Part shown: positions 5,880 to 38,392 of the stretch, in pieces
Numbering within the stretch: position 1 is the stretch's first letter
Layout of the letters: each line of letters opens with the position of its first letter
Origin: Microcaldota archaeon
GTDB lineage: Archaea > Micrarchaeota > Micrarchaeia > Micrarchaeales > CABMGC01
NCBI GenBank assembly: GCA_028866835.1
Contig: JAGWHJ010000010.1
Span: forward strand, 1 to 46,100
Direction of reading: 5' to 3'
DNA: 46,100 nt
The notes under the pieces: model-generated
Database searches by the model: none
Told to the model about the DNA's origin: nothing
The model's input: the letters and a program-made list of their open reading frames with translations, nothing else
Position numbers and translations under genes: made by a program

Positions 5880-6683
5880 TCAGATACCGAGAATCCTTCT
5901 TATCCAGCCTATCAGGCCGCCTCCGCCGCCCCTGCCAGGGCCTCCGCCAAGCTGCTGCCCTATCGTCCTGCCGCCCTTCGAGGCATATATCCTTGCGACC
6001 TCCTTTATCGCGAGTGAGAATGGCGACTTCCTCTGGAGCATGTATGTGGGTATGTGATCCGCTATTCCCAGGGGCACATCCTCAGATTCGGGCACCGTTG
6101 CGAGTATCCTGTTCCCGTAGAGCTCCTCTATCTCCCTTATGCTCACCTCGTAGCGCTTGTTCTTGTACCTGTTGACGACCATGTTGTGGTGTATCCCGTA
6201 CTTGTCGCATAGCTTCGAGAGCCTTATGCTGCTGGTGAAGGAGGATATGTCAGGGGTCGAGACTATCAGCGCCTCGTCGAGGTACTGCGCGGGCTCCATG
6301 GCGGAAAGGCCTGGCGCCGTGTCTATTATTATGAACTCGTAGCTCTCCGAAGACGCCCCGTCGATTATGTTGTTTATGGCCGGTACGGATCTCCTGTAAT
6401 TAGCCGGATGCAGGGTTCCGGGAAGCACGTAGAGCCCCGAAGGGCTGTGAAGCGCAACGGCGTCCTTGAGCTTGACATCGCCGTAAATGACGTCCTGATA
6501 GCCCTTGTTGACCTGTTCGAGGCCGAGCGCAAAGCCCACGCTGGGATTTGTGGTATCGGCATCGACAAGCAGGGTCTTGTACGAATATATTGACAGCGCA
6601 ACGGAGAGGTTCACGGCTATTGTAGTCTTGCCGACACCTCCTTTCTGGGATGAAATCCTAATAACATATGGTTTATCAGCCAT
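5880..6683 (-). CDS. MinD/ParA-family ATPase with C-terminal amphipathic helix
   Basis: A 267-aa deviant-Walker ATPase. KGGVGKTT is at residues 14-21, LLVDADTTNPSV is the switch region and FIIIDTAPG is Walker B. The body ends near residue 240 and is followed by a glycine-rich linker (GGGPGRGGGGG) and a terminal LIGWIRRILGI, which looks like the membrane-targeting amphipathic helix of MinD. Such proteins cycle between membrane and cytosol and position other complexes; the cargo here is unknown. ATG 6683 lies 15 nt after the stop of the surface-protein gene upstream, so the two are likely co-transcribed. Confidence 0.9.
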   Translation of the reverse strand: MADKPYVIRISSQKGGVGKTTIAVNLSVALSIYSYKTLLVDADTTNPSVGFALGLEQVNKGYQDVIYGDVKLKDAVALHSPSGLYVLPGTLHPANYRRSVPAINNIIDGASSESYEFIIIDTAPGLSAMEPAQYLDEALIVSTPDISSFTSSIRLSKLCDKYGIHHNMVVNRYKNKRYEVSIREIEELYGNRILATVPESEDVPLGIADHIPTYMLQRKSPFSLAIKEVARIYASKGGRTIGQQLGGGPGRGGGGGLIGWIRRILGI

Positions 6684-8503: not shown

Positions 8504-11500
8504 CTAGTCTGGCGGCTTCTCGAGCTTCTCCTTTATGCCTTTCAGGCTCTCCAGCCTGTCCTTGCTGAACTTTGCGCGCCTCATCCTCCACCTTACCAGG
8601 TATGCGGCTGCCGCTGCAACGATCACTGCGGCGGCCGGGAGCTCGTACTTCGTGTAGTCGGCAGGGTTGAACGAGACCGGCTGCGGCACGGTCGTTGCGT
8701 TGTAAGCAGGAGGACTGGTCTGCGATACCACCACGGGCAGGTAGTAGGTAAGGTTCGCGTTATTTGAATTGACGTAGAGTATCAGCGTTGCGGTTCCCGA
8801 TGACTGACCCGTCTGTATGCCGAACTTGAGGTTCACGAACTGCTCCGGCAGTATGGTTATGTTCTGGGTTGCGTTTGTCAGCTTTATGCTTGGCGGCGCG
8901 GTGAGAACGAACGAGACGTTCTGAGGCGACGTGCCCGTGTAAACCGCGGAGACGTTTATGACGCCAGTCGAGTTTACGTATAGCGTAGGGGTGACGGGAT
9001 TCGCGATTCGCAGCGACTGCGCGAAGTTCGCCGAGGCGGCTGATTCAACCGCAAGCAGGTTCTCCATGCTGTTGAGCAGGTTTATGTTCTGCGCCTTCTG
9101 CAGCACGTAATAGGCATAGGTGGAGTGCGAAGGCTGTATGCTGCCGGCATCCCACTGCACGATGTTGTAGCCCTTCTGCGCGGTGACGTTGTAGTTTGCG
9201 CCAGGCGTCTTTATCGAGTTGGCGCTGCTCACCACACCGCTGGGCAGATATGTCTGGACTATGAGGTTGTTTATCGGTATGCGCGTTGGGTTGCTGACCT
9301 GCACGGTAACGCCTACCTGCGTGGCATTTATCAGGCTCACCTGGCTGTCCATGGTAGGCCTGCCGGCCTGGTTGTACACGGTAACCGTAAGGAACTCCGT
9401 CTGGTAGGCGGAAGCGCCGTTAGGCAGCGTGGTCTTGACCTGCAGCGGCACATCGTACGTGCCTGGTGTCTGATTCTCGCCAGCCATGAAATCCAGCGGC
9501 ACCCCAACATAGGAGCCCGGGGTTATGTAAAGCGCGTTTGTAGGTATTGAAAGGATGTTCGAAGGCGTGCCGCCCGCGACGCTGATGTTTATGCCCTCTG
9601 TGACGTTGGCTATGTTCTGCAGGTTTATTATAGACGAGAGCCGCGATGAAAGACCGACCCAGGTGTAGATCGGCACGGAGCTTATGAGTATCTGCGGCGT
9701 CGAGCCGATCTTTGGTATGGTGGTCGTTGAGGTCGTCTTTATGGAGGTGCTAGGATGTACCCCCGAAGGTATTGTGGTGGTGGGCGTGACCGTGGACGGG
9801 CCGACGTTTATGGTTGATGAGCCAGACCCGAGCTTCTCCTTGGTAGAGGCCGAATCTGTGATGAACACATTATAAGTGAAGGAGTTTGAAGTTGGGGCGA
9901 CTATGGTGAATGCGAATGCGTTGGTCGTCCCGCTGACCCCCGAATACTGGCCCAGTATCGTGTTCCCGGTTATATTGAAGTATGTCACCGTGTAAGTGCC
10001 CGTTCCGCCGCTCCATGATGCGGTGAACGTCTCAGTCTGACCGTTCGTCAGCGAGGAGCTGGATGGCGTGAGCGTGACACCGGAGATGGCTGAATTCGCG
10101 CCGTACACAACCGATGCGTTGAGCACATTTGCAGGGGACGAAGAGTCTGTCACAACCAGGTTGACTGTGAACGCCCCTGTGCCCCAGCTTGGCTGCTGGG
10201 TGAATGCAAAGGCATTCTGGGAGGATGCAACACTCGCGTAGAGCGCGTTTGCGACCAGTGTGTTGGAGCTGTTGTACACCATGAAGTTGTAGGTGAACGG
10301 CGAGGTATGGCCAACCACCGCGCCTGTCAGTACCTGGAACTGGCCGCTGTCTATGAGCGTATTGGACACCAGTATTCCAACGGTCGTTCCGCTGCCCAGA
10401 ACGATCATCGTTCCGGACTGGACAGTAAGTGCCTCGGCTGTGGATGCACTGTCAGTCACGGTGAGGTTTGCCTGGAGCCTGTCGCCCACCGCATTGCTCG
10501 GGACCTGCCACAGGAAGGTGTTGCTCGTCGAGCTCACTCCTGTGTAGAGCGCGTTCGCGACAACCGTGCCGGTAAGTACATTCACCACTACGTAATTGTA
10601 GGTGTAAGGCGATGTGCCGCCACCCGAAGCGCCGTTGAATGCTATGTACTGCGTGGGCTGCACAACCGTGTTTGAGGCGCCTACGGATGGATTGAGAGCA
10701 GGGCTTACCTCTATCGTGTTCGTTATAGAATTGGTTGTCTGAGGGGAGCCCTGGCTGTCTGTTATTATGACGTTGTACTGGAAGGCGTTGTTCGCGGTAG
10801 GGCTGTGCACCACGAACGAGAAGGCGTTGCTTGTTGAAGAGACGCCTGTGTAGAGCTGCAGGGCCTTGGATCCGGTGACGTTGAAGTAGTTCACGGTGTA
10901 AGGACCTGTCGTTGCGGCCCAGGAAGACGTGAAGGTCTCGGTCTGGCCATCGTCGAGCAGGGTGTTGGATGGCGTCAGAGTAGGCGTCGTTGGGCTTGTC
11001 TGTATAGTTATTGTAGCAGAATACACAGAGTTAGCCGTCACAGGTGTGGATGCAGAATCTGTCACTATGACGTTTGCCTCAAGCGTGTTGCCGACAAGGC
11101 CGCTCGGGACCTGCCACAGGAAGGTGTTGCTCGTTCCAGAGACGCCGGTGTAGAGTGCATTGGCGATGAGCGTGCCGGTGATGGTGTTGACTACCATATA
11201 GTTGTATGTGAATAACGATGTGCCTCCGCCAGTGTTAGCGGTGAAGGCAACGTACTGGCCGGCATAGACTGCAGTGTTTGATGCTGCAATGGTCGGCGCA
11301 AGGGCGGGGCTTACCTGGATGGTGTTCGTTATAGAGTTGGCAGTCTGCGGAACTCCCTGGCTGTCTGTTATTATGACGTTGTACTGGAAGGCGTTGTTCG
11401 CGGTAGGGCTGTGCACCACGAACGAGAAGGCGTTGGATGTGCCTGAAACTCCGGTGAACTGCTGCAGGGTCTTTGATCCTGTGACGTTGAAGTAGTTCAC

Positions 11501-14500
11501 TGTGTAAGGACCTGTTGTTGCAGCCCATGTAGAAGTGAACACCTCCGTCTGGCCGTCGTCGAGAAGGACGTTGGATGGTATCAGCGTGACCGAGCTGACC
11601 GAAACAACAGTGATTGTTGATGATTCTACCGAGTTGGCGGTTGCTGCAGTCGATGCAGAGTCGGTTATTATGACGTTTGCTTGCAGGGTGTTGCCCACCA
11701 GCCCGACAGGCACCTGCCACGAGAATGTGTTAGTTGTTGAACTCACTCCGGTGTAGAGTGCATTGGCGATGAGCGTGCCGGTTATCGTGTTGACCACCTG
11801 GTAGTTGTAGGTGTACGATGAGGTTCCGCCGCCTGTGGTTGCCGTGAACACAACGTACTGGCCCGCATGGACAACGGTGTTTGAGGCAGAGATTGTAGGT
11901 GCAAGCGCAGGGCTTACCTGGATGGTGTTCGTTACAGAGTTGCTTACAGCTGGGGTCGATTCGCTGTCGGTTATTATGACATTGTACTGGAAGGCGTTGT
12001 TCGCGGTAGGGCTGTGCACCACGAATGCAAAGGCGTTTGACGTGCCTGAAACTCCGGTGAACTGCTGCAGGGTCTTGGATCCTGTGACGTTGAAGTAGTT
12101 GACCGTGTATGGGCCAACAGTAGAAGGCCATGACGATGTGAAGATCTCGTACTGGCCATCGTCGAGCAGGGTGTTGGATGGCGTAAGTGTAACTGCTCCC
12201 GTGGCTACCACTGTGATCGTGGACGATTCCACCGAGTTAGAGGTTGCTGCGCTTGATGCAGAGTCGGTTATTATGACGTTCCCTTCCAGGGTATTGCCCA
12301 CCAGGCCGCTTGGTACCTGCCAGGAGAATGTGTTGCTGGTCCCTGAGACGCCGGTGTAGAGTGCATTGGCGATGAGCGTGCCGGTGATTGTGTTGACCAC
12401 CTGGTAGTTGTAGGTGTAAGGCGAGGTCCCTCCTCCGGTGGTTGCCGTGAACACAACGTACTGGCCCGCATGGACAACGGTGTTGGACGCGGAGATGGTA
12501 GGCGCAAGGGCGGGGTTCACGACTATCGTGTTTGCTATGGAGTTGACAGTCGCTCCGGTTGTGGCGCCATCGGTTATTATCGCATTGTACTGGAAGTTGT
12601 TGTTCGAGGTAGGCGAAGAGACCTTGAATGCGTACGAGTTGGAGGTTGACTGGACAGAAGTGTACTGATTCAGGGTGGAGCTGCCAGTGATGTTGTATAT
12701 CTTGACGGTGAACGGATATGTGCCGCCTGTCCAAGACGATGTGAAGATCTCGTACTGGCCGGAATCGAGCACAGAGTTGGATGGGGTCAGCGAAGGCGTC
12801 GTAGGGAATGCGTTAACAGCTATTGTGGAGCTCTTTACCGAATTGGCTGACTGGGACAGGCTGTCTGTGACAATGACGTTCGCGTTGAGGGTATTGCCGG
12901 CATCGGCGGCAGGGATCTGCCATGCGAACGTGTTGGATGAAAGCGAGTTCGTGGTGAGCAGGTTTGCAAGCAGCGCGCCGGTGATAGTGTTCACAACCAG
13001 GAAGTTGTAGGTGTAAGGTGCCGTGCCGCCGCTTACAGTTCCAGTGAAGATTATGTACTGGGAGGCATCGGCAAGCGTGTTGGTTACTGATATTGTAGGG
13101 GTGGTCAGGCCGGACTGTATGGTCTGCACCCCGGAGAGTATCGAGTTCTGCGTGAATGGTACGGTTATGCCTGTGTCAGTGACGAACACGTTCGCGACGA
13201 GGGTGTTGCCCGCCTGCGACGAAGGCACCGAGTACGCGAACGAGTTGGACGTAGTGAGCAGGTTTCCTACCTGTATGTTGGTGACCGAGTTGTAGACAAG
13301 GAAGTTGTAGCTGTATGAGCCTGAGCCTCCGGTTACGTATGCATTGAATGGTATTGTCTGGCCCACATCGTATGTCCCTGCGGATGATGGCGCTATTGTG
13401 GGTACGCCAAGCTTGCTGTAGACCGTTATAACACCGGAGAGTATAGAGTTTGTGGTAGGAACGTTGGCTGAGCTATCCTGCACGAAGACGTTTGCTACAA
13501 GCGTGTTGCCAGTTGCAGGTATAGTGTAGGCGTAGGAGGCTGAGGATCCGTATCCTGAGCTTGCTATGAGCGCGTTGGTTATGGAGTTGTAGATCACGAA
13601 GTTGTACGTGTATGGAGTTGTGCCGCCGGAGACGCCGCTGGCAGTGAAGGTAACGGTCTGGCCAACCTCGTATGATTGTGCAGACGATGGCGAGATCGCA
13701 GGCGTGCCAAGAGCAGCTTCTACAGTGAATATGCCAGAAGGTACTGAATTCACAGTTACGGCGTTTGCCCCGGCATCAGTGACGAAGACGTTCGCGACGA
13801 GGGTGTTGCCCGCGTTCGCGGAGTTGACCGGGAATGCGTACGTCAGCGAACCGCCCTGGCCCGAGGCGGTGAGGTAGTTGCCCACTACGGTGTGGGTGAC
13901 GCTGTTGTAAACAAGGAAGTTGTACGTGTACGATCCCGTGCCTCCGGATGCGGTTCCCGTGAATATTATGTCAGTGCCCTGGTCGTAGACCGCGTTCGAT
14001 GAAGGCGCGATGGTCGGTGTGCCGAGTGCCGTGTCGACCGTGAACACTCCCGAAGGCAGCGAGTTTGCGGATACGGCGTTTGCGCTGCTGTCAGTGACGA
14101 AGACGTTCGCGACGAGTGTGTTGCCCGCGTTCGCGGAGTTGACCGGGAACGCGTATGTGACGCTGCCGCCCTGGCCCGATGTGGACAGGAAGTTTCCTAC
14201 CTGCGTATGGGTTACCGAGTTGTACACCAGGAAGTTGTACGTGTACGATCCCGTTCCGCCGGACGCGGTTCCCGTGAATATGATGTCAGTGCCCTGGTCG
14301 TAGACCGCGTTCGATGAAGGCGCGATGGTCGGTGTGCCGAGTGCCGTGTCGACCGTGAACACTCCCGAAGGCAGCGAGTTGACTGTTACCGTGTTCCCGG
14401 AACTGTCCGTCACGAAGACGTTGGCTACAAGCGTGTTTCCTGCATTAGCGCTATTGACAGGGAATGCATATGTAAGCGAGCTTCCCTGACCGGATGTGGA

Positions 14501-17500
14501 GAGATAGTTAGCGACAACGGTGTGGGTTACAGAGTTGTAGACAAGGAAGTTGTAGGTATATGAGCCAGTGCCGCCTGAGGCTGTGCCGCTGAAGATTATG
14601 TCCGTTCCTTGATCATATACAGCGTTGGCTGAAGGTGTAATGGTAGGCGTGTTAAGCGAGGTGTCTACGGTGAATACGCCTGAAGGCACCGAATTGACAG
14701 TATTAGGGAAGGTTGCGCTGTCTGTTATGAAGACATTGGCCACCAGAGTATTCCCTGCGTTGGCGCTATTTACAGGGAATGCATATGTAAGCGAACTGCC
14801 CTGGCCTGCTGCGCTAAGATAATTTCCTACCAGAGTGTGAGTGACGGAGTTGTAGACGAGGAAGTTGTAGGTGAATGTGCTTGTACCTCCGGATGCGGTT
14901 CCGGTGAATATGATGTCGGTGCCCTGGTCGTACAGAGTGTTCGATGAAGGCGTGACTGAAGCAATAAGTGCAGGGTTTACGGTAACCTTGCTATTGATGC
15001 TGTTGGTGGTCTGCGCAACAGGTGCCGAATCCGTTACAAATATGCAGTAATATGTTGTGGAGGTGGGGGAGACTGGGCTGAACAGCACGTTTGTAGTGCC
15101 GATGTTTGTGATCTGCTGGACCTGCGTGCTTCCGGAGTTGCAGGTTGATGTTGCTGAGGAATACAGCGTTGCAGTGTACTTAGGGGTTCCGCTCTGCACT
15201 CCAGCACGCATTGCATCGCCAATACCTATCCAGTTCTCTGCATACGTGTTACGGCTCTCTGCCCTCTGCAATGTAAGCTCGGCAGACGATTGCAGCGAAC
15301 CGGCTAGCTGGTAACCTACTCCGCTGCCCCAGAATATGGTACCGTTTGTCTTTACAGTGTTGGTATTGGCTATGCCGACCCATCCGTCTCTGCTGCCTGA
15401 CTGGAGAGGTATGCTAGACCCGCCGTCATTGCCAACATAACCAAGAAGGATGTCATTAGCGTTTGATGTTGATATGTATATCTCAGCCGGACCAGCGGAA
15501 TTTGATGTGGTCACAGGCAGCAGAGCATTTGTATCCCAAGGGCTAGTCGTGTTAGCGCCGGAGACCCCGAAAGCTATGATCGTGCCTTCGTTTATCGTTC
15601 CGCTAAGGTGGGCAGTTATGGCATCGTTTGAGAGCGGATTAGACGCTATAGCATACCAAACCTCAAGGTCGTTGTAGTATCCGTTTATGTCAGATGCCTG
15701 CGTGACCGCAGACCTCTTCTGCCAAGTCAGGCCTGCCGTATCTGATATTGAGCTAACTGACTGGGCAGTCGATGATCCTGTCTCAAAGCCCACAAGGACG
15801 ACTACAACATCCGAGGAGTTGTATGTTGTAAGCTTTACGGAATTACTGCTTGCGCTCGAGAATGAGTCGTTGCTTGCGCCATCTATGCCCAACATGGCGT
15901 TGCTTGGCCACACAGAGTTGAACGTGAATGACTGGCCGCTGTCTATTGTAGGGTTGGAGGGCGCTATTGTTGGGGTGGCAAGCACGGTATTTACTGTAAG
16001 GGTGTTTGATGCGCTGCAAGCGCCGCTCGGCGCTCCGGAGCTGTCAACAACGTTGAAGCTGTAGGTCGTGCTGTGCGCAGGGTTGACCAATACCGAGGTT
16101 CCTGAGCCTATCGAGGTTCCACTGCAGTTTGGTTGCGGGAAATAATTGATTGTATACGGCGGGCTTCCTCCCGAAGGATGGCCTGCAAGCCGTGCATATT
16201 GGCCGTTGTCTATCGCGGTGTTGGTTTCGGTGAGCACGCCAGTCAACAATATGGAATTGACCGTGAAGACCCCACTTGGTATCGAATTGACCGCAACAGC
16301 ATTCGCAGAAGTGTCTGTTATGAAGATATTCGCAACGAGGGTGTTGCCCGCGTTCGCGGAGTTGACCGGGAAGAGATAGCTCTGTGTCGACGCTCCAACC
16401 GAGACGTTGAGGAAATTGCCGACAAGGGTGTGGGTGACGCTGTTGTACACGAGGAAGTTGTACGTGTATACCTTAGTACCGCCTGAGACAGTAGCCGTGA
16501 GATTTATGGAGGTGCCCTGGTCGTAGACCGCGTTCGATGAAGGCGTTAGTGACACTGTTATAGAAGAATTGATTGTGAATACCCCTGAAGGTATTGAGTT
16601 GACTGATGCTGAGTTTGCGCTGCTGTCAGTCACGAAGACGTTTGCGACAAGTGTGTTGCCCGCGTTCGCGGAGTTGACCGGGAATGCGTACGTCAGCGAA
16701 CCGCCCTGGCCCGAGGCGGTGAGGTAGTTGCCCACCTTTGTGTGCGTAACTGAATTGTACACCAGGAAGTTGTACGTGTAGCTGCCTGTGCCGCCCGATG
16801 CCGTTCCCGTGAATATGATGTCGGTGCCCTGGTCGTAGATTGCATTGGACGATGGGGTGATCGTCGGGGTGCCCAGCGAGGTGTCGACCGTGAACACTCC
16901 CGAAGGCAGCGAGTTTGCGGATACGGCGTTTGCGCTGCTGTCAGTGACGAACACGTTCGCGACTAGTGTGTTTCCTGCATTTGCGCTGTTCACAGGGAAC
17001 GCGTATGTGAGTGTGCCCGACTGCCCTGATGTTGATAGGTAGTTGCCCACCTTTGTGTGCGTTACGCTGTTGTAGACCAGGAAGTTGTACGTGTACGATC
17101 CCGTGCCTCCGGATGCAGTTCCTGTGAAGATTATGTCTGTACCCTGATCGTACATAGCGTTGGACGAAGGCGTGATTGTAGGGGTATTGAGTGCTGCATC
17201 AACAGTAAATACTCCTGATGGAATCGAGTTAGCTGATACTGAATTCGCAGAGTTATCATTTACAAATACATTTGCCACGAGGGTGTTTCCTGCGTTTGCG
17301 CTGTTGACAGGGAATGCGTACGTGAGTGTGCCGCCCTGTCCAGAAGCGCTGAGATAGTTGCCCACAACAGTGTGCGTAACAGAGTTGTACACAAGGAAGT
17401 TGTACGTGTACGATCCCGTTCCGCCGGATGCGGTTCCGGTGAATACTATGTCAGTGCCCTGGTCGTAGATGGCATTTGATGACGGTGCGATGGTTGGGGT

Positions 17501-20500
17501 GTTGAGTGCCGAATCAATGGTTATGACTCCGGAATGCACGGAATTCACCGGGACTTCGTTGGCTGATTGATCCGTAACGAATACGTTCGCGACGAGGGTG
17601 TTTCCTGCTGCAGGTATGGTGTATGCAAATGTCTGCGATGTCGAGAGTTGATTTGCAATAAGGACATTCGTTATGGAGTTGTAGACGAGGAAGTTGTATG
17701 TGAATGTCCCCACACCGCCCCCTGGAAATGGAGTATTGAATATCACCGTAGACCCTACGTCATAGGTCTGCGCAGATGAAGGTGTGATTGATGGCTGCCC
17801 TATTGGTGACACAACCTGGATTGTTACAGAATGGATGGAATTGACTGCTACTGCGTTTCCAGAGCCATCTGTAATGAAGACGTTCGCGACGAGGGTGTTC
17901 CCTGCGTTCGCAGAGTTTATCGGGAAGGCGTATGTTTGGGTTGTGGAGGTTGTTGCGGTGCTGAGGAAATTGCCGACCTGGATGTTGGTCACCGAGTTGT
18001 ACACAAGGAAGTTGTATGTATACGACGTAGTGCCCCCGCCTGCCGTCGCGGTGAAGATTACATCTGTGCCCTGGTCGTATTGCCCATTAGAAGACGGGGC
18101 AATAGACGCGGTAAGCGCTGCATTGACTGTGAATATCCCTGATGGTATTGAGTTGACGGTTACAGGCGTGGATGCCGTGTCAGTAACAGACACGTTAGCA
18201 AATAGGGTGTTTCCTGCATTGGCGGAGTTGACCGGGAATGCGTAGGTGAGCGTGCCGCCCTGTCCCGAAGCACTGAGATAGTTGCCGACGAGTGCACCGC
18301 TTGTTGCATCGCTAAGCAGGCACGATGGATTAGATACGCTGCTTGACTGGACCCAGGCGAGTCTGACGCTGCCGCCGGAGCCTCCTGCCCCCTCTGTACC
18401 CGAGTTCGCTCCGCCAGCGCCAGTAGTACCGCCAGGGACACCATTGCTGCTTGAACCACCATTGCTGCCACCAGAACCAGCGCCGGTGTTTGAGCCTGAG
18501 CCGCTGCCGCCGCCACCGCCGTAGCCGCCGCCACCGGCGCCTGCGGAGCCGCCGGCGCCGCCGGAGCCGCCGTTACCGCCGGCTCCTCCACCACTTCCTG
18601 AGGCGCCTGCGCCTCCTGATTGGCTGCCGCCGTTAGAGCCGGAGCCGCCGCCAGAGCCTCCGCTGCTACTGCCGCCGCCTGCAGTCGACCCGCCGCTGCC
18701 TGCGCCGCCGGAACCTCCGGATGCGTAATTAATCAATACGCTATTAGAGAGGATTGCTGAACTGCCACCGCCGCCTCCGCCGCCCACATAATCGTTATTG
18801 CCACCGCCGCCTCCGTAATACCCGCTGCCTCCTCCGCCTCCGCCGAAGTATCCGCCGCCTCCGCCGGCGCCGCCCGCATATACGGTAAGGGAATTGCCTG
18901 CCGATATGGTAAAGCTGCCCGTGACCTGTGCGCCATTCCCGCCGTTGCCGCTGCCGCCTCCTCCTCCGCCTCCGTAGAGCGTATAATTGAAGAGTGTTTT
19001 GCCAGGGATGGTGCCGGAATAACTGCTTGTTATTGTGTTTGAGCATGGAATGCCGGCGTAGACAAGGAAGTTGTATGTGTAGCTGCCCGTTCCTCCGGAT
19101 GCGGTTCCGGTGAAGATTATGTCAGTGCCCTGGTCGTAGATAGCATTGGAAGACGGGGTTATGGAGGCGGCCAGGCTCGGATATACGGAGAAGCTGTTCG
19201 TTGACTGAATGGCAGGAATCGCGTTGTAGCCTGCAGCAAGGGTGTTTGTATAGGCTATGTTTACTGCAACCCCATTATTAGCATTTCCGCTGAGGTCATT
19301 CGCATTGCCGTTGAGGGGCCACCAGCCGACTATGCTGTTGGGAACCGATGGAGCTCCGGCTATGCCCTCCTGGTAGAGGCTATTCACCTGCGCCGCGGAT
19401 AGCGAGGTGTTGTAGAGCTGGATGTTTGACAACAGCCCATCCCAGCCGAAGGAGTTTGAAGAAGAACATTCCTTTCCTCCTATCGCGTACTCGCATGTTC
19501 CAGAACTGAATGGCTCTAAAGACCCGGTAAAACTTGCCGTCCCGACCTGTGATCCGTTTATGTAATATGTGATTACGTTTTGATTGAGCACAACAGCAAA
19601 CTGGTACCATTGGTTGGTATTAAGCGCACTGGTGCCGGTAAATGAATATGCAGTTCCTCCGGAGTTATGCATCTCTACATAAGGCTTGCCGCTGGATGTG
19701 CCTATGTCGAATATCCAAGAATCGTCAACACCCGACCATGAGGAGAACGCGAAATCGAATCCAAAACCTCCCGGATAGGCATTGGCGTTCATCCAGCCGG
19801 CCACGGTCATCGTGTTGCCGTTCAAGGACAGGCTACCTGAATTGGGGACATTGGCATCGGCATTATTTGCGAACTGCGCCGCCTGGCTCGGCAGTCCGGA
19901 GCTGTCAAACACATTGCCATTCGCATTCTGCGTACCAAGATCGTTGTTCGAGACAGGAAGCTTGTAGCTAAGGGTATTTGAAGTCGATATTGAGTTGTAC
20001 TGGAGGCTGCTAGCAATGACGTTGCCATTCACTGAGTTCGTAACAATGACATTGTACGTGTATGGCGTTGTTCCTCCGGATATGCTATCTACTATGGTTT
20101 CGTACTGCCCCTGTTCGGCTACGCTGTTTGATACGGTCAGGCTGGTGGCGGCCAATGCCCTGCTGATGGGGATGGCTATGGTCTTGATGCTGTTCGCCCT
20201 GATGCTGGATGAATCGGTTATTATGACATTTGCCTGGAAGGTATTGCCAGCCGTAGCCGCAGGTATCGACCATGCGAACACGTTGCCGTTCGGTGCGACA
20301 TTAGTGTACAGGGCGTTTGCTATCTGGACGCCGGTTACGGAGTTCGTCACTATGTAGTTGTAGGTGAACGGGGATGTGCCGTTGCCTACCTTCGCAGCAA
20401 AATAGACGGACTGGCCGGTCTCGTAGCCTAGGACGTTGCCTGTTAGCAGCACGGCGCTTAGGCTCCGCACCGTTATGGTTCCCGTAAGGATCGAGTTGGC

Positions 20501-23500
20501 AATCGAATTAGTGCTTGCACTGTCAGTGACGAAGACGTTCGCGACGAGGGTGTTGCCGGCGTTTCCGGTGACCTGCCACAGGAAGGTGTTTGAGGTTGTT
20601 ATCATGTTTGCTACGACGATATTCGTCACGCTGTTGTACACGAGGAAGTTGTACGTGTATGGCGTTGTGCCTCCGGATTCGTACGCGCTGAAGAGCTCGT
20701 ATTGATTGCTACCTACAACGGGGGTATTCGATGCTGCAATGGTAGGTGTTGCAAGTGCGGGCTCCACAGTCCATGCGGATGTGAGTATGGAGTTCACTAT
20801 CTCGTTGGTCGTAGCAGAATCGGTAATTATTACGTTCGCATCCAGCGTATTGCCAGAATTGCCCGTTACCTGCCAGAGGAAGGTGTTCGAGGCGGTGAGC
20901 ATGTTCGCCACCTGGATGCCGGTCACGCTGTTGTAGACGAGGAAGTTGTACGTCAGTGGCGTTGCGCCGCCGCTCTCGTACGCCGAGAAGAGGATGTACT
21001 GGTTTGTGTCAACTGTTGGCGAATTCGTTCCCGCGAGTGTGGGCGTTGTCGGGGCGGTGTATACGTAATAATTCCCGGAGTATATGGAATTGGCAAGATT
21101 CGGGGTTGACGCGTCGTCGGTGACGAAGACGTTCGCCTTCTCCGGCGAGTTTGAAGTGTCGACCGAGCCGATGTAGTACGACCATCCCTGCGTTGTCGAG
21201 GCCGACCCTTTGTCAGTGACCGTATTCGTTACGGTTGCCGTGGTTACGGAGTTAACGGCATTGAAACCGTACGTGTAGCCCGAAGACGCGGATGAGCTGC
21301 CCCAGGATCCGCCGATGAACCTTACGTCGGACACCGCCAGGCCTGTGGACGATAGGCCCAGAGACGGGAAATTAACAGTGTAAGAGTTGCCCTCGGTCTG
21401 GTTGCATAGAGCAAGCGCTATCCCAGATGCATAGCCGGTGGGGGTGATGAACTGTTGCGTGCAGCCTGCTGGCCATGTGATGCTGCTGCCGCACGACCCA
21501 TCGCCGCATGCGGCAATTATTGCGACGGACTCGGGCTGCGTGCCCGAATCGGTGTTGTAGGTAAACGATGCCGAGTTCACGCCATTGTAAGTAGACCCGG
21601 ACTGGCCGCCGTAGGTCATGGTCCCTGAAGTGCTTACGGAGAGCCCTCCGGCCTCTATGTACTGCGAAGCGGATATGGAAGTGGTGCATGTCGACCCGCT
21701 AGTCCAAGGCTGGCTGATCTCTGCGACATTGGCCGTGCCTGTGCCTCCCGCGTTATTAAACAGTGGGTATGATGGCGTTGAAAGAGGGTTCGACCCGTAT
21801 CCCGCGCCCCAGCAGAACACGCCTGGAGATGTCGATGCGGTGACAGAGCACGATGTAGAGGTACCAGAAACCGGCCCGCTGTTGCAGTACACTGCGTTGT
21901 ATACGCCGACGAGCGTTCCGCCGGATGTGGTGGCGGTAAAGGATTGGTACTGGCCCACGTCCAGTATCGAGTTTGAAGGCGAGCCTATTACCACGCTGAG
22001 CTGGGGATTTATTGTTACAGCTTTGGATGCGATGCTATTTACAACGCCATTCACAGAATCGGTGATGTACACCTTTGCAGTTATTGTATTGCCTGCGTCT
22101 GCAGCCGGGACCTGCCAGAGGAATGTGTTTGTCGTGCCGGAAAGGCCGGAGTAAAGTGCGTTTGCTACAAGCGTACCGGTAACGCTGTTTACCACCTGGT
22201 AGTTTGCGGTGTACGAGGACGTGCCTCCGGACCATGAAGCCGCGAAAGACTCGTACTGGCCGGCATCGACGTACGGGGTGTTTGAAACGGTCAGTGTTGG
22301 TGTGGATAATGCTGGATTTACCGTCCAGGTTGAGGTGAGTATGGAATTTGCAGTCTGTGCGGTGCCATATGAGCTGTCGGTCACGAAGACGTTGGCATTT
22401 ACCGTGTTACCCGCATCTGCAGCAGGAACCTGCCAGAGGAAGGTGTTTGACGATGTAGTCGTGCTTGCAAGCTGCGTTCCGGTCACGCTGTTGTAGACAT
22501 AGAATTTGTAGGTGAACGGCGATGTGCCCGCCGATTCGTACGCGCTGAAGCTGATGTACTGGTTGGCATCGACCGTAGGGGAGTTTGTGCCTGCAATGGT
22601 AGGAGTGGCCAATGCTGGGTTTACAGTCACTTCGCTGTTTATGCTGTTCGTAGTCACTGGTGTCGAAGCAGAATCGGTTATGAAGACGCAGTACCACGTG
22701 TTTGATGTCGGCGATACAGCGCTGAATATCGCATTTGCCGCTGCAAGGCCGGATATCGTCTGGACAAGGGTGCTTCCGGAATTGCACGTCGAGGTGGATG
22801 AAGAGTACAGTTTGGCGGTGTATGGCGGTGTGCCAGAGTTCAGCGTTGCGCTCTGGTGCAATGCGTCGCCCATCATCATCCAGTACCAGTCGGCTGCCAG
22901 AGGCTCGTTGGTGATGTTCATCTGTATCATGCTGCTGGTCTGCGCGGTGGAGAACGAGTTGAAGGCTATGCCGCTGTTCCATGCGTTAGTACCCCCGTAA
23001 TTTCCCTTGCTTGACAGGGTCATATAAGCGCCGTTGTCGGAGATGTAGCCGTTGGCACTGCCATGGCCGCTCCCGATGCTGTCGCTGCCTGCGAAGCCGA
23101 AGATGAAATCCGGGTATTGCGATGTTGATACCGTGATATTTGGCGGCGCACTTGCGGTGCCTTTGTGTATTGCGTTTGCCGGAAGCGTGATGCTGCTGTC
23201 CCACGGGGTGACCGTATTCGTTCCGGATACTGCAAAGGCCTGGATCACAGCGTCGTCTATCCCAGCCGAGAGTTTTACTGTTATCGTGTCTGACGAGAGC
23301 TTATTCGGTGATACCGCATACCATACCTCTTGATCATCATAATAGGCAGCTGCGTCCGATGTTATCACGTTGGCGTTCCTTTTTGTCCAGGTCAGCCCTG
23401 CCGTGTCGGACACTGAGTTTACGCTGAAGCTGCTTGCGCCCTCCGCACCTGCATAGACCACTAATACATCGTTGGTGTTTGAGGTGGTGATCGACATCGT

Positions 23501-25120
23501 GCCGCTGCTGCCGCCTGTGAAGATGCTGTTGGTAACGCCGTCTATGGCTAGGGTGCCGGCGGAGCTGCCCCAGGAAGAGCTAAACGTGACAGACTGGCCG
23601 CTGTCGATGCCTGGGTTCGAAGGCGATATGGAAGGTGCATTCAATGCGCTATCTATGGTAAGGGTGTTTGCAAGCAGCAGCGCGTTGCTGCCGTAGTAAT
23701 ACGGATTCGTCCCGTTGTCCTGGGCCACTGCATAAAGGTTCAATGCGCCGTAGATGCTCGACGCAGCGGCCTCGCTGTATTTCACGCCGTTGAACGTGAA
23801 CGACAGTGAGTTGCTGCTTATGGCATTTATGGTGAGCCTCATCAGCCCGTTGGAGGTCTGTATGCCGCTGAGCTCCTGAACCGATGTCCCAGACAGGTTG
23901 CCTATTGCGGTTGCCTGGTTCGTGTTCTGTTCAGTGACGTATGCAAGGGTGCCTGTGGGGCTGATTGCTATGTCCCAGGGATTTGAATTCACCACTATCG
24001 TGTTTATTACGCTGTTAGCGGCAACGTTTATCACATTCACGGTGCTCCCGGCTCCGGTATTCACCACGTATGCCAGGCTGCCGGAGGGGTTGAACGAGAC
24101 ATAAGTTGGATGTGTCCCCTCCGTAATGGTATTGATCACCGTGTTTGAAGCCACGTTGATCACGTTCACTGTGCCGGACCCATAATTGACAATGTAGGCC
24201 ATGGAGCCCGTCGGATTGAAGGCGACGCTTATCGGATTGGTGCCCACGGTAATGGTATTTATCACGGTGTTGGTAGCTACCTTTATCACGCTGACGGTGC
24301 CTGAGCCCGAGTTTGTCACATAGGCTATGGAACCGTTAGGGTTGAATACCGCATCGGTCGGGCTGCTGCCCACGGAGATCGTGCTTGCTATGCTGTTTGT
24401 TGCTACATTTATCACATTGACAGCGCCAGTGCCGCCATAGTCAGTAACGTATGCCAGGCCGCCGAAGGGGTTGAAAGAGATGCCGTACGGCGTAGGGCCC
24501 ACCAATATTGTCTTTATTACGGCATTGGTTGACAGCGATATCACATTGACTGCTCCGCTGTTCTGGTTTACAACATACGCCAGCGTATTCTTCGGATTGA
24601 CCGATATCGACCATGGCGCTGGGCCTACCGCTATCGTATTGACCACGGAATTTGATGCGACATTTATTGTGCTGACGGTGTTGGAGTTGTAATTTGTCAC
24701 GAATGCAAGCGCACCGGAGGGATTGAAGGCAACATACTGCGGGTATGAACCGACGTTTATGGAGTTTACCACCTGATTGTCCAGCTTGTTTGTCGAGAGA
24801 TTTTGGTTTATCCACGTCCATGCTCCGGAATACGGGCCTCCCGAGCCCCCGCTTATCACGGTGTTTGCGATAGCTATCTGCCCTACGTCTATCGTAGTGT
24901 TGGTGAGCGTAAACTTGCTTGGGGTCGCAGTAAGGGAAGCGGCTGAGGCGGTGCACATGAGTGAGATAAACGAGATAATAGCTGCCATCCTCAGCGCAGC
25001 TGCTACGGTACGGCCGTTTGTCGAGGCCAAAAACAAATTTGTGGGAGGCAGAGACCCTCTTGAAGCCCCTTTTCCCTCGTTTTCATGGTGGGTATGGATG
25101 TGTTCGGTGCGCCTTTTCAT
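8504..25120 (-). CDS. Giant repetitive cell-surface protein, about 5,538 aa
   Basis: One uninterrupted frame of 16.6 kb. ATG 25120 is chosen because a TATA box lies 35 nt upstream and because extension to 25471 would run through the neighbouring methyltransferase gene. Order: His-rich N-region, signal peptide (about residues 44-61, cleavage after ASA), seven-bladed YVTN propeller (119-412), then many roughly 100-aa beta-sandwich repeats typified by YDQGTDIIFTGTASGG and YTYNFLVYNSVT. Inserted modules are described separately. A Thr/Pro-rich linker near residue 5110 leads to an approximately 400-aa module shared with the 581-aa neighbour, one membrane helix, and a basic tail (DRLESLKGIKEKLEK). 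N-glycosylation sequons are abundant. Likely an adhesin or cell-coat fibre; that role is inference. Confidence 0.88.
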   Translation of the reverse strand: MKRRTEHIHTHHENEGKGASRGSLPPTNLFLASTNGRTVAAALRMAAIISFISLMCTASAASLTATPSKFTLTNTTIDVGQIAIANTVISGGSGGPYSGAWTWINQNLSTNKLDNQVVNSINVGSYPQYVAFNPSGALAFVTNYNSNTVSTINVASNSVVNTIAVGPAPWSISVNPKNTLAYVVNQNSGAVNVISLSTNAVIKTILVGPTPYGISFNPFGGLAYVTDYGGTGAVNVINVATNSIASTISVGSSPTDAVFNPNGSIAYVTNSGSGTVSVIKVATNTVINTITVGTNPISVAFNPTGSMAYIVNYGSGTVNVINVASNTVINTITEGTHPTYVSFNPSGSLAYVVNTGAGSTVNVINVAANSVINTIVVNSNPWDIAISPTGTLAYVTEQNTNQATAIGNLSGTSVQELSGIQTSNGLMRLTINAISSNSLSFTFNGVKYSEAAASSIYGALNLYAVAQDNGTNPYYYGSNALLLANTLTIDSALNAPSISPSNPGIDSGQSVTFSSSWGSSAGTLAIDGVTNSIFTGGSSGTMSITTSNTNDVLVVYAGAEGASSFSVNSVSDTAGLTWTKRNANVITSDAAAYYDDQEVWYAVSPNKLSSDTITVKLSAGIDDAVIQAFAVSGTNTVTPWDSSITLPANAIHKGTASAPPNITVSTSQYPDFIFGFAGSDSIGSGHGSANGYISDNGAYMTLSSKGNYGGTNAWNSGIAFNSFSTAQTSSMIQMNITNEPLAADWYWMMMGDALHQSATLNSGTPPYTAKLYSSSTSTCNSGSTLVQTISGLAAANAIFSAVSPTSNTWYCVFITDSASTPVTTNSINSEVTVNPALATPTIAGTNSPTVDANQYISFSAYESAGTSPFTYKFYVYNSVTGTQLASTTTSSNTFLWQVPAADAGNTVNANVFVTDSSYGTAQTANSILTSTWTVNPALSTPTLTVSNTPYVDAGQYESFAASWSGGTSSYTANYQVVNSVTGTLVANALYSGLSGTTNTFLWQVPAADAGNTITAKVYITDSVNGVVNSIASKAVTINPQLSVVIGSPSNSILDVGQYQSFTATTSGGTLVGVYNAVYCNSGPVSGTSTSCSVTASTSPGVFCWGAGYGSNPLSTPSYPLFNNAGGTGTANVAEISQPWTSGSTCTTSISASQYIEAGGLSVSTSGTMTYGGQSGSTYNGVNSASFTYNTDSGTQPESVAIIAACGDGSCGSSITWPAGCTQQFITPTGYASGIALALCNQTEGNSYTVNFPSLGLSSTGLAVSDVRFIGGSWGSSSASSGYTYGFNAVNSVTTATVTNTVTDKGSASTTQGWSYYIGSVDTSNSPEKANVFVTDDASTPNLANSIYSGNYYVYTAPTTPTLAGTNSPTVDTNQYILFSAYESGGATPLTYNFLVYNSVTGIQVANMLTASNTFLWQVTGNSGNTLDANVIITDSATTNEIVNSILTSAWTVEPALATPTIAASNTPVVGSNQYELFSAYESGGTTPYTYNFLVYNSVTNIVVANMITTSNTFLWQVTGNAGNTLVANVFVTDSASTNSIANSILTGTITVRSLSAVLLTGNVLGYETGQSVYFAAKVGNGTSPFTYNYIVTNSVTGVQIANALYTNVAPNGNVFAWSIPAATAGNTFQANVIITDSSSIRANSIKTIAIPISRALAATSLTVSNSVAEQGQYETIVDSISGGTTPYTYNVIVTNSVNGNVIASSLQYNSISTSNTLSYKLPVSNNDLGTQNANGNVFDSSGLPSQAAQFANNADANVPNSGSLSLNGNTMTVAGWMNANAYPGGFGFDFAFSSWSGVDDSWIFDIGTSSGKPYVEMHNSGGTAYSFTGTSALNTNQWYQFAVVLNQNVITYYINGSQVGTASFTGSLEPFSSGTCEYAIGGKECSSSNSFGWDGLLSNIQLYNTSLSAAQVNSLYQEGIAGAPSVPNSIVGWWPLNGNANDLSGNANNGVAVNIAYTNTLAAGYNAIPAIQSTNSFSVYPSLAASITPSSNAIYDQGTDIIFTGTASGGTGSYTYNFLVYAGIPCSNTITSSYSGTIPGKTLFNYTLYGGGGGGGSGNGGNGAQVTGSFTISAGNSLTVYAGGAGGGGGYFGGGGGGSGYYGGGGGNNDYVGGGGGGGSSAILSNSVLINYASGGSGGAGSGGSTAGGGSSSGGSGGGSGSNGGSQSGGAGASGSGGGAGGNGGSGGAGGSAGAGGGGYGGGGGSGSGSNTGAGSGGSNGGSSSNGVPGGTTGAGGANSGTEGAGGSGGSVRLAWVQSSSVSNPSCLLSDATSGALVGNYLSASGQGGTLTYAFPVNSANAGNTLFANVSVTDTASTPVTVNSIPSGIFTVNAALTASIAPSSNGQYDQGTDVIFTATAGGGTTSYTYNFLVYNSVTNIQVGNFLSTATTSTTQTYAFPINSANAGNTLVANVFITDGSGNAVAVNSIHSVTIQVVSPIGQPSITPSSAQTYDVGSTVIFNTPFPGGGVGTFTYNFLVYNSITNVLIANQLSTSQTFAYTIPAAGNTLVANVFVTDQSANEVPVNSVHSGVITIDSALNTPTIAPSSNAIYDQGTDIVFTGTASGGTGSYTYNFLVYNSVTHTVVGNYLSASGQGGTLTYAFPVNSANAGNTLVANVFVNDNSANSVSANSIPSGVFTVDAALNTPTITPSSNAMYDQGTDIIFTGTASGGTGSYTYNFLVYNSVTHTKVGNYLSTSGQSGTLTYAFPVNSANAGNTLVANVFVTDSSANAVSANSLPSGVFTVDTSLGTPTITPSSNAIYDQGTDIIFTGTASGGTGSYTYNFLVYNSVTHTKVGNYLTASGQGGSLTYAFPVNSANAGNTLVANVFVTDSSANSASVNSIPSGVFTINSSITVSLTPSSNAVYDQGTSINLTATVSGGTKVYTYNFLVYNSVTHTLVGNFLNVSVGASTQSYLFPVNSANAGNTLVANIFITDTSANAVAVNSIPSGVFTVNSILLTGVLTETNTAIDNGQYARLAGHPSGGSPPYTINYFPQPNCSGTSIGSGTSVLVNPAHSTTYSFNVVDSSGAPSGACSASNTLTVNTVLATPTIAPSNPTIDSGQSFTFNSVWPSNAMLGIDGASNDSFSSASSNSVKLTTYNSSDVVVVLVGFETGSSTAQSVSSISDTAGLTWQKRSAVTQASDINGYYNDLEVWYAIASNPLSNDAITAHLSGTINEGTIIAFGVSGANTTSPWDTNALLPVTTSNSAGPAEIYISTSNANDILLGYVGNDGGSSIPLQSGSRDGWVGIANTNTVKTNGTIFWGSGVGYQLAGSLQSSAELTLQRAESRNTYAENWIGIGDAMRAGVQSGTPKYTATLYSSATSTCNSGSTQVQQITNIGTTNVLFSPVSPTSTTYYCIFVTDSAPVAQTTNSINSKVTVNPALIASVTPSSNTLYDQGTDIIFTGTASGGTSTFTYNFLVYNSVTHTLVGNYLSAAGQGSSLTYAFPVNSANAGNTLVANVFITDSATFPNTVNSVPSGVFTVDTSLNTPTITPSANAVYDQGTDIIFSGTASGGTGSYTYNFLVYNSVTHTVVANYLSTSGQGSSLTYAFPVNSANAGNTLVANVFVTDSSGNTVTVNSLPSGVFTVDTALGTPTIAPSSNAVYDQGTDIIFTGTASGGTGSYTYNFLVYNSVTHTQVGNFLSTSGQGGSVTYAFPVNSANAGNTLVANVFVTDSSANAVSANSLPSGVFTVDTALGTPTIAPSSNAVYDQGTDIIFTGTASGGTGSYTYNFLVYNSVTHTVVGNYLTASGQGGSLTYAFPVNSANAGNTLVANVFVTDAGANAVTVNSVPSGIFTVEAALGTPAISPSSAQSYEVGQTVTFTASGVSGGTTPYTYNFVIYNSITNALIASSGYGSSASYAYTIPATGNTLVANVFVQDSSANVPTTNSILSGVITVYSKLGVPTIAPSSAGTYDVGQTIPFNAYVTGGSGSYSYNFLVYNSVTNIQVGNLLTTSNSFAYSVPSSQAGNTLVANVFVTDTGITVPFTQNSILSGVQTIQSGLTTPTISVTNTLADASQYIIFTGTVSGGTAPYTYNFLVVNTITGALLANLLTTNSLSSNTFAWQIPAADAGNTLNANVIVTDSLSQSANSVKSSTIAVNAFPTTPSLTPSNSVLDSGQYEIFTSSWTGGTYPFTVKIYNITGSSTLNQYTSVQSTSNSYAFKVSSPTSNNNFQYNAIITDGATTGATVNSIANTIVVNPALAPTISASNTVVHAGQYVVFTATTGGGTSPYTYNYQVVNTITGTLIANALYTGVSGTSNTFSWQVPSGLVGNTLEGNVIITDSASSAATSNSVESSTITVVATGAVTLTPSNTLLDDGQYEIFTSSWPSTVGPYTVNYFNVTGSKTLQQFTGVSGTSNAFAFVVHSPTANNAFQYNVIITDSESTPAVSNSVTNTIQVSPALAPTISASNTVVHAGQYVVFTATTGGGTSSYTYNYQVVNTITGTLIANALYTGVSSTTNTFSWQVPVGLVGNTLQANVIITDSASTAATANSVESSTITVVSVSSVTLIPSNVLLDDGQTEVFTSTWAATTGPYTVNYFNVTGSKTLQQFTGVSGTSNAFSFVVHSPTANNAFQYNVIITDSQGVPQTANSITNTIQVSPALAPTIAASNTAVYAGQYVAFTANTGGGTSLFTYNYMVVNTITGTLIANALYTGVSGTSNTFLWQVPSGLVGNTLEANVIVTDSASTPVTANSVYSATITIQTSPTTPTLTPSNTLLDDGQTETFTSSWAATTGPYTVNYFNVTGSKALQLYTGVSSTSNAFSFVVHSPTANNAFQYNVIITDSQGSPQTTNSITNTIEVSPALNPSVGASNTVVQPTQYIAFNGASGGGTSPYTYNYVVVNVLTGTVVANALYTGVSSTSNTFLWQVPSNAVGDRLQANLTVTDSASTAEALTVQSGTMIVLGSGTTVGILVSNTLIDSGQFQVLTGAVVGHTSPFTYNFMVYNSSNTLVANALYASVASSQNAFAFTQQPSWGTGAFTVNLVVTDSSSPANVLNASVVYGANSAISGVTLTPSSSSLTNGQTETFTASWSGGTGTYTVTYFNITGNTILGQYSGVSGTTNAFAFTIVAPTSNSFTYNVFITDSASTKEKLGSGSSTINVGPSTVTPTTTIPSGVHPSTSIKTTSTTTIPKIGSTPQILISSVPIYTWVGLSSRLSSIINLQNIANVTEGINISVAGGTPSNILSIPTNALYITPGSYVGVPLDFMAGENQTPGTYDVPLQVKTTLPNGASAYQTEFLTVTVYNQAGRPTMDSQVSLINATQVGVTVQVSNPTRIPINNLIVQTYLPSGVVSSANSIKTPGANYNVTAQKGYNIVQWDAGSIQPSHSTYAYYVLQKAQNINLLNSMENLLAVESAASANFAQSLRIANPVTPTLYVNSTGVINVSAVYTGTSPQNVSFVLTAPPSIKLTNATQNITILPEQFVNLKFGIQTGQSSGTATLILYVNSNNANLTYYLPVVVSQTSPPAYNATTVPQPVSFNPADYTKYELPAAAVIVAAAAAYLVRWRMRRAKFSKDRLESLKGIKEKLEKPPD
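10300..12780 (-). repeat. Higher-order repeat of about 603 nt in the giant gene
   Basis: A marker (TAGAGTGCAT or TAGAGCGCGT) recurs at 10545, 11151, 11754 and 12357, giving spacings of 606, 603 and 603 nt. Each period encodes two different sandwich domains of about 100 aa: one with AGQYVVFTATTGGGTSPYTY, the other with LDDGQ and TVNYFNVTGSKTLQ. The two-domain unit was therefore duplicated as a whole. Outer limits are approximate. Confidence 0.85.
13700..14960 (-). repeat. Tandem array of four 315-nt units (105 aa each)
   Basis: The sequence GGTCG/GATCA in the YDQG codons recurs at 13981, 14296, 14611 and 14926, exactly 315 nt apart each time. Parts of neighbouring units are identical over long stretches, for example around 13981-14067 and 14296-14381, while others differ at many silent sites. 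Confidence 0.9.
15190..15930 (-). other. SDTAGLTW module, second copy, inserted in a sandwich repeat
   Basis: Roughly residues 3060-3310 of the giant protein. SDTAGLTWQKR, NDLEVWYAI and SGANTTSPWDTN match the first copy near 22.9-23.6 kb. Sandwich-repeat sequence stands on both sides (IDSGQSFTFNSVW before, SGTPKYTATLYSS after), so the module seems to sit within one repeat. Limits are approximate. Confidence 0.7.
16240..17490 (-). repeat. Second array of four 312-315-nt units
   Basis: The YDQG codons recur at 16519, 16831, 17146 and 17461 (spacings 312, 315, 315). The units are the same type as at 13.7-15.0 kb; a tract of about 70 nt around 16881-16950 is repeated at 14031-14100. The unit near 17160-17300 is visibly more AT-rich, so units differ in age or in conversion history. 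Confidence 0.88.
18297..19057 (-). other. Glycine-rich domain inserted in a loop of a sandwich repeat
   Basis: Codes for about 250 residues of the giant protein. The core begins YTLYGGGGGGGSG, includes ISAGNSLTVYAGG and runs to about 18370 as nearly pure Gly/Ser. It resembles the glycine-rich beta domains of bacterial and phage surface proteins. It replaces the short NSVTHT loop of an ordinary repeat: the sequence before it ends YTYNFLVY and that after it resumes GALVGNYLSASGQGG. Cysteines just inside each edge (codons at 19043-19045 and 18320-18322) could form a disulfide closing the insertion. Confidence 0.78.
19205..19905 (-). other. LamG/concanavalin-like domain inserted in a repeat
   Basis: About 230 residues with the LamG pattern: AAQFANNADANVPNSGSLSL, MTVAGWMNA, NQWYQFAVVLNQ, ITYYINGSQVG, GLLSNIQLYNTSLSAAQV and GWWPLNGNANDLSGNANN. 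It follows NVFDSSG, which corresponds to the NVFVTDSSG strand and loop of an ordinary repeat. LamG domains often bind glycans or proteins; the ligand here is unknown. Confidence 0.82.
21255..21890 (-). other. Cys-containing module inserted in a repeat
   Basis: About 210 residues with several cysteines (NAVYCNSG, TSCSV, VFCWGAGYGSN, CGDGSC, WPAGCTQQF). Repeat-like sequence flanks it: LDVGQYQSFTATTSGGT before, YTYGFNAVNSVT after. The module is otherwise unrecognised. Disulfides are plausible outside the cell. Confidence 0.6.
22870..23570 (-). other. SDTAGLTW module, first copy, inserted in a repeat
   Basis: Roughly residues 517-750. SDTAGLTWTKR, DDQEVWYAVSPN and VSGTNTVTPWDS correspond closely to the copy at 15.2-15.9 kb. 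The following repeat half (YTAKLYSSSTSTCNSGST) is also shared, so module and host repeat were duplicated together. Confidence 0.7.
23885..24766 (-). other. Seven-bladed YVTN/YncE-type beta-propeller
   Basis: Seven consecutive units of about 42 aa, each with a VGxxPxxxxFNPxGxLAYVTN-like core followed by VNVINVATNxVIN. Seven blades make a closed propeller. The preceding sequence (TTIDVGQIAIANTVISGGSGG) resembles the first half of a sandwich repeat and the later NLYAVAQDNG resembles the second half, so the propeller may also be an insertion. Confidence 0.88.
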
Positions 25121-31068: not shown

Positions 31069-31400
31069 AAGGGCTTAAGATAGCGTACGTGGGCAACAAC
31101 CTGCTCAATCTCGGGTTCAAGATAGCGGGCGTGACGGAATCGCACACGGTCACTGAGGTTTCGCAGACGGAATCGATAATGAAGGAGCTGATGTCCCGCG
31201 CCGACGTAGGCGTCATAATCATGACCTCTGCCGCGAGGAGGATGGTCAAGGACAGGAGGCTCAGCGACAGCATCTCCACGAGCCTTATGCCCCTGATAGT
31301 GGAGGTGCCGGAGCTCAACGAGCCGCTCGCGGAGGAGGAGACGCTGAGGAACCTTATATTAAGGGCAATTGGAATTGATATTACGAAAACTATTAGGTGA
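31053..31400 (+). CDS. atpF: A-type ATP synthase subunit F
   Basis: Subunit F binds the central rotor subunit D. 115 aa with the CheY-like alternating fold: [33 protein letters not shown] and [18 protein letters not shown] 31053 lies inside the end of atpC. Its TGA stop is part of AGGTGAT, which serves as the ribosome site for atpA. Confidence 0.9.
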
Positions 31401-31405
31401 TCATT

Positions 31406-37652: not shown

Positions 37653-37678
37653 TGGATCACAGTTGTTAATCATGCATT

Positions 37679-38362: not shown

Positions 38363-38392
38363 TTCAGCACACAATTCCTTCTCTATTTCCAA

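Follow-up and report, generated by a model that had tools for sequence, protein, structure and literature searches.

The locus described here raises the question of whether the domains of unrelated families in a long, repetitive surface protein stand between the repeats or inside them. The window analysed, a stretch of 46,100 nucleotides, is the complete contig C5 of the assembly. A preliminary description of it named six modules in a giant protein of about 5,538 residues (a YVTN propeller, two SDTAGLTW modules, a Cys-rich module, a LamG domain and a glycine-rich domain) and proposed that at least four of them, perhaps all six, interrupt single repeats; the span that it gave, 15190-24766, runs from the propeller to the second SDTAGLTW module, both included. 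All six modules are indeed present.

The giant gene occupies most of a minus-strand ORF of 5,655 codons (25471-8504), in which a methionine at codon 118 gives a product of 5,538 residues. This start is plausible, and about 80 bases are left between the giant gene and the preceding one. Residues are numbered from this methionine, residues a to b corresponding to window positions 25120-3(a-1) down to 25120-3b+1. The source is a Micrarchaeota-type archaeon, and relatives of the protein were found on Micrarchaeota contigs. Its main landmarks, and its neighbour, are these:

8504-25120 (-): gene of the giant surface protein, 5,538 aa when read from ORF codon 118
24938-25003 (-): signal peptide core AAALRMAAIISFISLMCTASAA, hydrophobic (from the sequence)
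9809-14959 (-): membrane-proximal array of 17 uninterrupted repeats, a putative spacer (repeat mapping)
8507-9403 (-): C-terminal part with stalk, transmembrane helix and short basic tail; the 581-aa neighbour has a paralogous region
6699-8444 (-): 581-aa membrane protein with a CARDB domain and with the C-terminal stalk and anchor common to the giant protein (Pfam scan and comparison)

The Ig-like array comprises about 35 repeats of approximately 98-105 residues (roughly 100), about 29 of which are intact, and extends up to residue ~5104. It is followed by a threonine-rich linker, the C-terminal stalk, a transmembrane helix and a short basic tail; this C-terminal part aligns with the 581-aa neighbour at 35% identity over 340 columns (2e-45). 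Directly downstream of both surface-protein genes lies a gene for a MinD/ParA-type ATPase (5880-6683, minus strand), which could belong to their operon. The giant protein itself gave no match to an ATPase domain, and only a tail of a few dozen residues follows its transmembrane helix. All six modules fall within residues 112-3307, the distal 60% of the protein, and none within the 17 repeats spanning residues 3388-5104. No repeat of the giant protein scored above the curated cut-off of the Pfam Ig-like or PKD models, the sole Pfam match over its cut-off in the plain-repeat part being CUT_C, without a significant stretch, and a PDB sequence search with the repeat profile returned nothing significant.

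The remainder of the window holds several observations of separate interest. In an ORF for SufB (2-1369, plus strand), whose start lies outside the contig, an intein-like LAGLIDADG stretch is fused in frame ahead of the SufBD core (Pfam 2e-9 and 7e-73), and the gene for subunit A of an A-type ATP synthase (31397-34795, plus strand) contains a large intein that comprises splicing and LAGLIDADG domains. Two adjoining, apparently paralogous proteins without a Pfam match are encoded on the minus strand (36825-37673 and 37679-38392), and tandem duplicate aminotransferase-like genes on the plus strand (39156-40376 and 40406-41629), with a tRNA-Val just after them.

To locate the repeat sequence around each module, a profile of about 100 columns was built from intact repeats only, and local HMM matches to it were sought on both sides. 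A second profile of 93 columns, drawn from repeats of the giant protein and of related proteins, was used in an alignment that allows one long jump. The interrupted repeats and their modules are listed below, k denoting profile columns:

24800-24937 (-): N-terminal Ig-like domain, first half, to strand C (jump alignment k2-38; uninterrupted homologue L010)
23900-24787 (-): YVTN seven-bladed propeller, CC' loop, 28 predicted strands (TIGR02276 3e-44; model pLDDT mostly >85)
23651-23845 (-): N-terminal Ig-like domain, second half (aligned to uninterrupted L010 and others)
23570-23632 (-): repeat strands A-B before SDTAGLTW module 1 (k1-21, 33 bits)
22850-23569 (-): SDTAGLTW module 1, BC loop (no Pfam/NCBIfam match)
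22625-22849 (-): rest of the SDTAGLTW-1 repeat, strands C-G (k19-93, 50 bits)
21914-21982 (-): repeat strands A-B before the Cys-rich module (k3-25, 40 bits)
21284-21913 (-): Cys-rich module, BC loop (no Pfam/NCBIfam match)
21074-21283 (-): rest of the Cys-rich-bearing repeat, strands C-G (k26-91, 42 bits)
19880-20143 (-): repeat strands A-F before LamG (k1-85, 72 bits)
19226-19879 (-): LamG module, probably FG loop; circular permutation places WWPLNGNANDLSGNANNG C-terminally (Laminin_G_3 5e-20)
19172-19225 (-): putative strand G of the LamG-bearing repeat, STNSFSVYPSL (from spacing; no HMM gain)
19049-19165 (-): repeat strands A-C before the glycine-rich module (k1-38, 50 bits)
18302-19048 (-): glycine-rich module, Cys at each edge, CC' loop, replaces NSVTHT (DNA alignment and jump alignment)
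18131-18301 (-): rest of the glycine-rich-bearing repeat, strands C'-G (k39-93, 45 bits)
15908-15970 (-): repeat strands A-B before SDTAGLTW module 2 (k1-21, 33 bits)
15200-15907 (-): SDTAGLTW module 2, BC loop (local HMM matches and jump alignment)
14981-15199 (-): rest of the SDTAGLTW-2 repeat, strands C-G (k21-93, 45 bits)

With the first profile, the flanks of the glycine-rich module matched columns 2-37 and then 40-100, those of the Cys-rich module columns 4-27 and then 20-97, and those of the two SDTAGLTW modules columns 1-25 followed by 18-97 (module 1) and by 22-97 (module 2). For the glycine-rich, Cys-rich and first SDTAGLTW modules, the first local match extends weakly into the module and its end was taken from the alignment. 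The jump alignment scored 87 bits for the glycine-rich module (cut 38/39), 74 bits for the Cys-rich module (25/26), and 75 and 70 bits for SDTAGLTW modules 1 and 2 (21/19 and 21/21), against at most 24 bits in sixty shuffles of the same regions and at most 31 bits in the reversed sequences of 43 proteins. The propeller reached 31 bits (cut 38/39; shuffle maximum 21.5), a low score because the first Ig-like domain is divergent; at the sequence level, its nesting is secured by empty sites in relatives, described below. Taken together, the sequence comparisons confirm nesting for five of the six modules, whose flanks are halves of one repeat that resumes at about the same column, and to this extent the proposal that the modules interrupt single repeats stands.

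For the sixth, the LamG domain, it is only probable. Allowing a jump gains nothing there (72.8 vs 72.2 bits), and the part of the repeat ahead of the module already extends to column 80-85, leaving therefore only strand G for the far side, so that the profile cannot tell nesting from a repeat without strand G. The segment STNSFSVYPSL and the next repeat are spaced as are a normal strand G and the linker in intact repeats, and insertion into the FG loop is the probable arrangement.

Two of the modules belong to known families. The YVTN propeller (TIGR02276, 3e-44) has seven blades of four strands, 28 strands being predicted, and the LamG domain matches Pfam Laminin_G_3 at 5e-20, with 72.6 bits vs a cut-off of 27.6. 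In the LamG domains of these archaea the motif WWPLNGNANDYSGNGNNG, which is usually N-terminal, closes the domain at its C-terminal end; besides window 19226-19879, this circularly permuted form occurs at protein C-termini (L116, L100, L134, L132), short pilin-like proteins included. The SDTAGLTW, Cys-rich and glycine-rich modules were matched by no Pfam or NCBIfam model, and profiles of the glycine-rich and SDTAGLTW modules found nothing significant among PDB sequences. A paralogue of 2,129 residues on contig C16 of the same genome (L035, G000:C16, 3755-10144, minus strand) has Cys-rich and SDTAGLTW modules in tandem, joined by short linkers and without Ig-like repeats, which indicates that these modules are autonomous. 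Further Cys-rich modules occur on another contig (G000:C27), one of the matches having an in-frame TGA.

The glycine-rich module had been singled out as the clearest case, replacing the NSVTHT loop with a cysteine at each edge, and the DNA alignment bears this out: its site is the NSVTHT position of intact repeats, and its flanks resemble the closest intact repeats of the giant protein. In relatives the module stands alone at protein C-termini after a Ser/Thr-rich linker (L056-L060); there, a first cysteine lies close to its start and a second in the terminal motif CPI. Since the edge cysteines recur in these stand-alone copies, they belong to the module, whose ends they may tie together.

If nesting is real, the host domain should also exist without its guest, and the same repeat free of insertion had been suggested as something to look for in related genomes. 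The N-terminal domain of L010 (G017) is the domain of the giant protein without the propeller: TLTNTTIDVGQISVANTVISGGTGGYTGNWVIVPPSSANIATSNTVMGLLSGNTLTLKINATAANSLQLTFNGANYF. A search with this domain in 79 genomes of the family gave matches in 34, several ORFs yielding two matches split near query residue 56, and 33 loci were kept after removal of false anchors. The site is empty in 14 of the 33 loci (no more than 29 residues between the halves), filled by YVTN in 18 (inserts of roughly 160-340 residues, one of 619) and filled by Kelch in one (343 residues). The 619-residue insert (L196, G079:C6:5800-9300) is twice the usual length and possibly consists of two propellers. In a tree of the N-terminal domain from which the insert was left out, the YVTN rows group together in one clade (92/84), for which a single change suffices; the Kelch case is separate. 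The N-terminal YVTN insertion is therefore old, occurred once and was inherited across two families, and uninterrupted N-terminal domains persist beside the filled ones.

Independent cases of nested modules were found in other Micrarchaeota proteins that contain the repeat. The C'E loop holds an SDTAGLTW module in G064 (89 bits), Kelch domains twice in G039 (80 and 96 bits) and twice in G010 (67 and 40 bits), a YVTN domain in L104 (66 bits) and LamG in L076 (55 bits), and the BC loop holds YVTN in G035 (43 bits), LamG in G095 (48 bits) and a DUF2341/LamG-like insert in G036 (75 bits); shuffle controls for these cases gave 18-26 bits. The same module type thus occupies different loops, and the same loop takes different module types. 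Complementary halves were seen in about ten cases in relatives besides the five here. All nested cases in relatives are cited only after a one-by-one recheck with shuffles: the first jump-alignment surveys contained many rows with inserts of 60-110 residues, artefacts in which halves of divergent neighbouring repeats had been joined, and these were dropped. A double YVTN in G035, weak by profile (30-36 bits), was left out of the count. That genome also has an SDTAGLTW module as an ordinary bead between near-complete repeats.

Structure prediction around the modules had been proposed as a check, and two units were modelled. The first (residues 56-496) was built from an alignment of 11 rows, every one of them with the insert, in order not to prejudge the outcome. 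Its mean pLDDT is 81.7; the propeller is mostly above 90, its 28 strands forming seven four-stranded blades, and the flanks, at pLDDT of about 50-76, place two strands (B, C) before the propeller and five after it. The best structural match was 1l0q, an archaeal YVTN-plus-PKD protein (E 5e-28, rmsd 15.6 over the whole alignment). The second model, of SDTAGLTW module 2 with its neighbours (residues 2955-3487), is weak (mean pLDDT 69, pTM 0.49) and puts strands A, A' and B before the module, C, C', F and G after it, and a full strand set in the next intact repeat. Fold searches returned propellers and, with low TM-scores, generic Ig-like chains, and say nothing on sandwich closure. The predicted strand orders of both models are consistent with nesting, at the modest flank and overall confidence just given. 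Mixed alignments that combined intact repeats with the glycine-rich, LamG and SDTAGLTW modules were misaligned and were not taken to modelling.

We consider it probable that the giant protein is a membrane-anchored fibre of about 35 Ig-like repeats, five and probably six of which carry an autonomous domain in a surface loop. The BC loop would serve the two SDTAGLTW modules and the Cys-rich module, the CC' loop the YVTN propeller and the glycine-rich module, and the FG loop probably LamG. Each pair of halves would fold into one sandwich from which the module projects sideways. As the peptide would leave and re-enter the same sandwich, tension on the fibre should be borne by the sandwiches and not by the displayed domains. 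The plain proximal repeats would act as a spacer, and the decorated distal part may attach to partners, a host archaeon's surface being the probable one. In other systems, glycans or proteins are the ligands of LamG, Kelch and YVTN folds. Host binding is the leading functional guess, one towards which we lean, because Micrarchaeota associate with Thermoplasmatales and because the PKD/propeller surface proteins of Mia14, an ARMAN-2-related member of the Micrarchaeota, have been proposed to take part in cell-cell interactions (PMC5498576).

A somewhat unlikely alternative is that nesting is real but neutral, insertions having piled up, with no role in display, wherever loops of the redundant array tolerate them. 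Proteins are known to evolve by taking up domains in their loops, the array offers many spare repeats, and the repeats flanking the glycine-rich module are still close to their neighbours. Against such a neutral history, the N-terminal propeller insertion has been kept in 18 loci of two families, the modules include folds that bind ligands elsewhere, and they cluster distally, leaving the proximal repeats free. We also think it unlikely that the modules serve the architecture of the envelope, as contacts in an S-layer-like coat, instead of binding other cells. Archaeal surface-layer proteins do combine YVTN propellers with PKD domains, among them the top structural match 1l0q, and the Mia14 study discusses PKD, Kelch and YVTN surface proteins as surface-layer components (PMC5498576); yet the length of the giant protein, its single C-terminal anchor and the differing module sets from protein to protein would fit a fibre better than a lattice subunit. 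Beads on a string, with the modules between repeats and the flanks being repeats truncated by recombination, are very improbable even though tandem arrays recombine, SDTAGLTW and Cys-rich modules do stand in this way in the C16 paralogue and the former in G035, and the LamG domain here might come after a repeat whose strand G is gone: random truncation would not give complementary ends at five modules and again, about ten times, in other proteins, the N-terminal domain is whole where the propeller is absent, and the complete sandwiches expected on both sides of a bead are contradicted by the sequence for five of the six modules, LamG being probable only.

Beyond the fibre itself, one Ig-like repeat family may be a general socket in Micrarchaeota, its BC, CC', C'E and FG loops accepting about seven unrelated domain families, with plugs swapped while the rod stays undisturbed. 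This would amount to a natural loop display for partner recognition that keeps the displayed domains off the force path, a tentative reading to which we give somewhat less than an even chance. For the question of how host-dependent DPANN archaea recognise and hold their partners, the nested modules provide a concrete list of candidate binding domains, and the repeat loops show where these can be cut out cleanly. For engineers who display domains on an Ig-like rod, the same loops are naturally tested positions, and for annotators, half-repeats adjoining a propeller or LamG domain are to be read as one interrupted domain and not as damage.

No description of this nesting was found in the open-access literature searched, and several known systems share parts of it. 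An archaeal surface protein with a YVTN propeller and an Ig-like domain is known from 1l0q, in which the propeller presumably comes first and the PKD domain second; that entry is titled in the PDB as a tandem arrangement, whereas in the giant protein Ig-like strands lie on both sides of the propeller. The SPEARE-type giant proteins of nanohaloarchaea, likewise from DPANN, also combine a signal peptide, a single N-terminal Ig-like domain, propellers and an extended Ig-like array, but end in a C-terminal transmembrane domain with a VirB4/TraG-like ATPase domain, in place of the transmembrane helix and short tail seen here, and the account of them does not describe nesting (PMC10266531). Mia14 has PKD-type domains with Kelch and YVTN propellers, CARDB-like modules and a LamG-like expansion, which the available part of that account presents as a domain inventory, without nesting or empty sites (PMC5498576). 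The TNF-like and glycine-rich domains of phage Pam3 gp24 and of ALK may indicate the fold of the glycine-rich module, with strands that alternate with GGGGxGG-type stretches (PMC9608196); the module differs in the Cys pair that closes it and has no sequence match to any solved structure, and that it may be related to these tips of phage fibres and to ALK is a lead only. The closest precedents for nesting itself are the streptococcal pilus-tip adhesins RrgA and GBS104, in which a ligand-binding vWA domain is inserted and its flanks fold back into Ig-like domains, the vWA domain of RrgA lying between two chain regions that fold together (PMC7893114). Each of these adhesins bears one module, whereas the giant protein bears at least five, of different families and in different loops of a tandem repeat, and in its relatives such sites may be empty or hold another domain. 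RrgA already provides a single nested adhesin domain; what appears to be new is that one repeat family repeatedly lends its loops as sockets to many domain families, at sites that are empty, filled or differently filled from one protein to the next.
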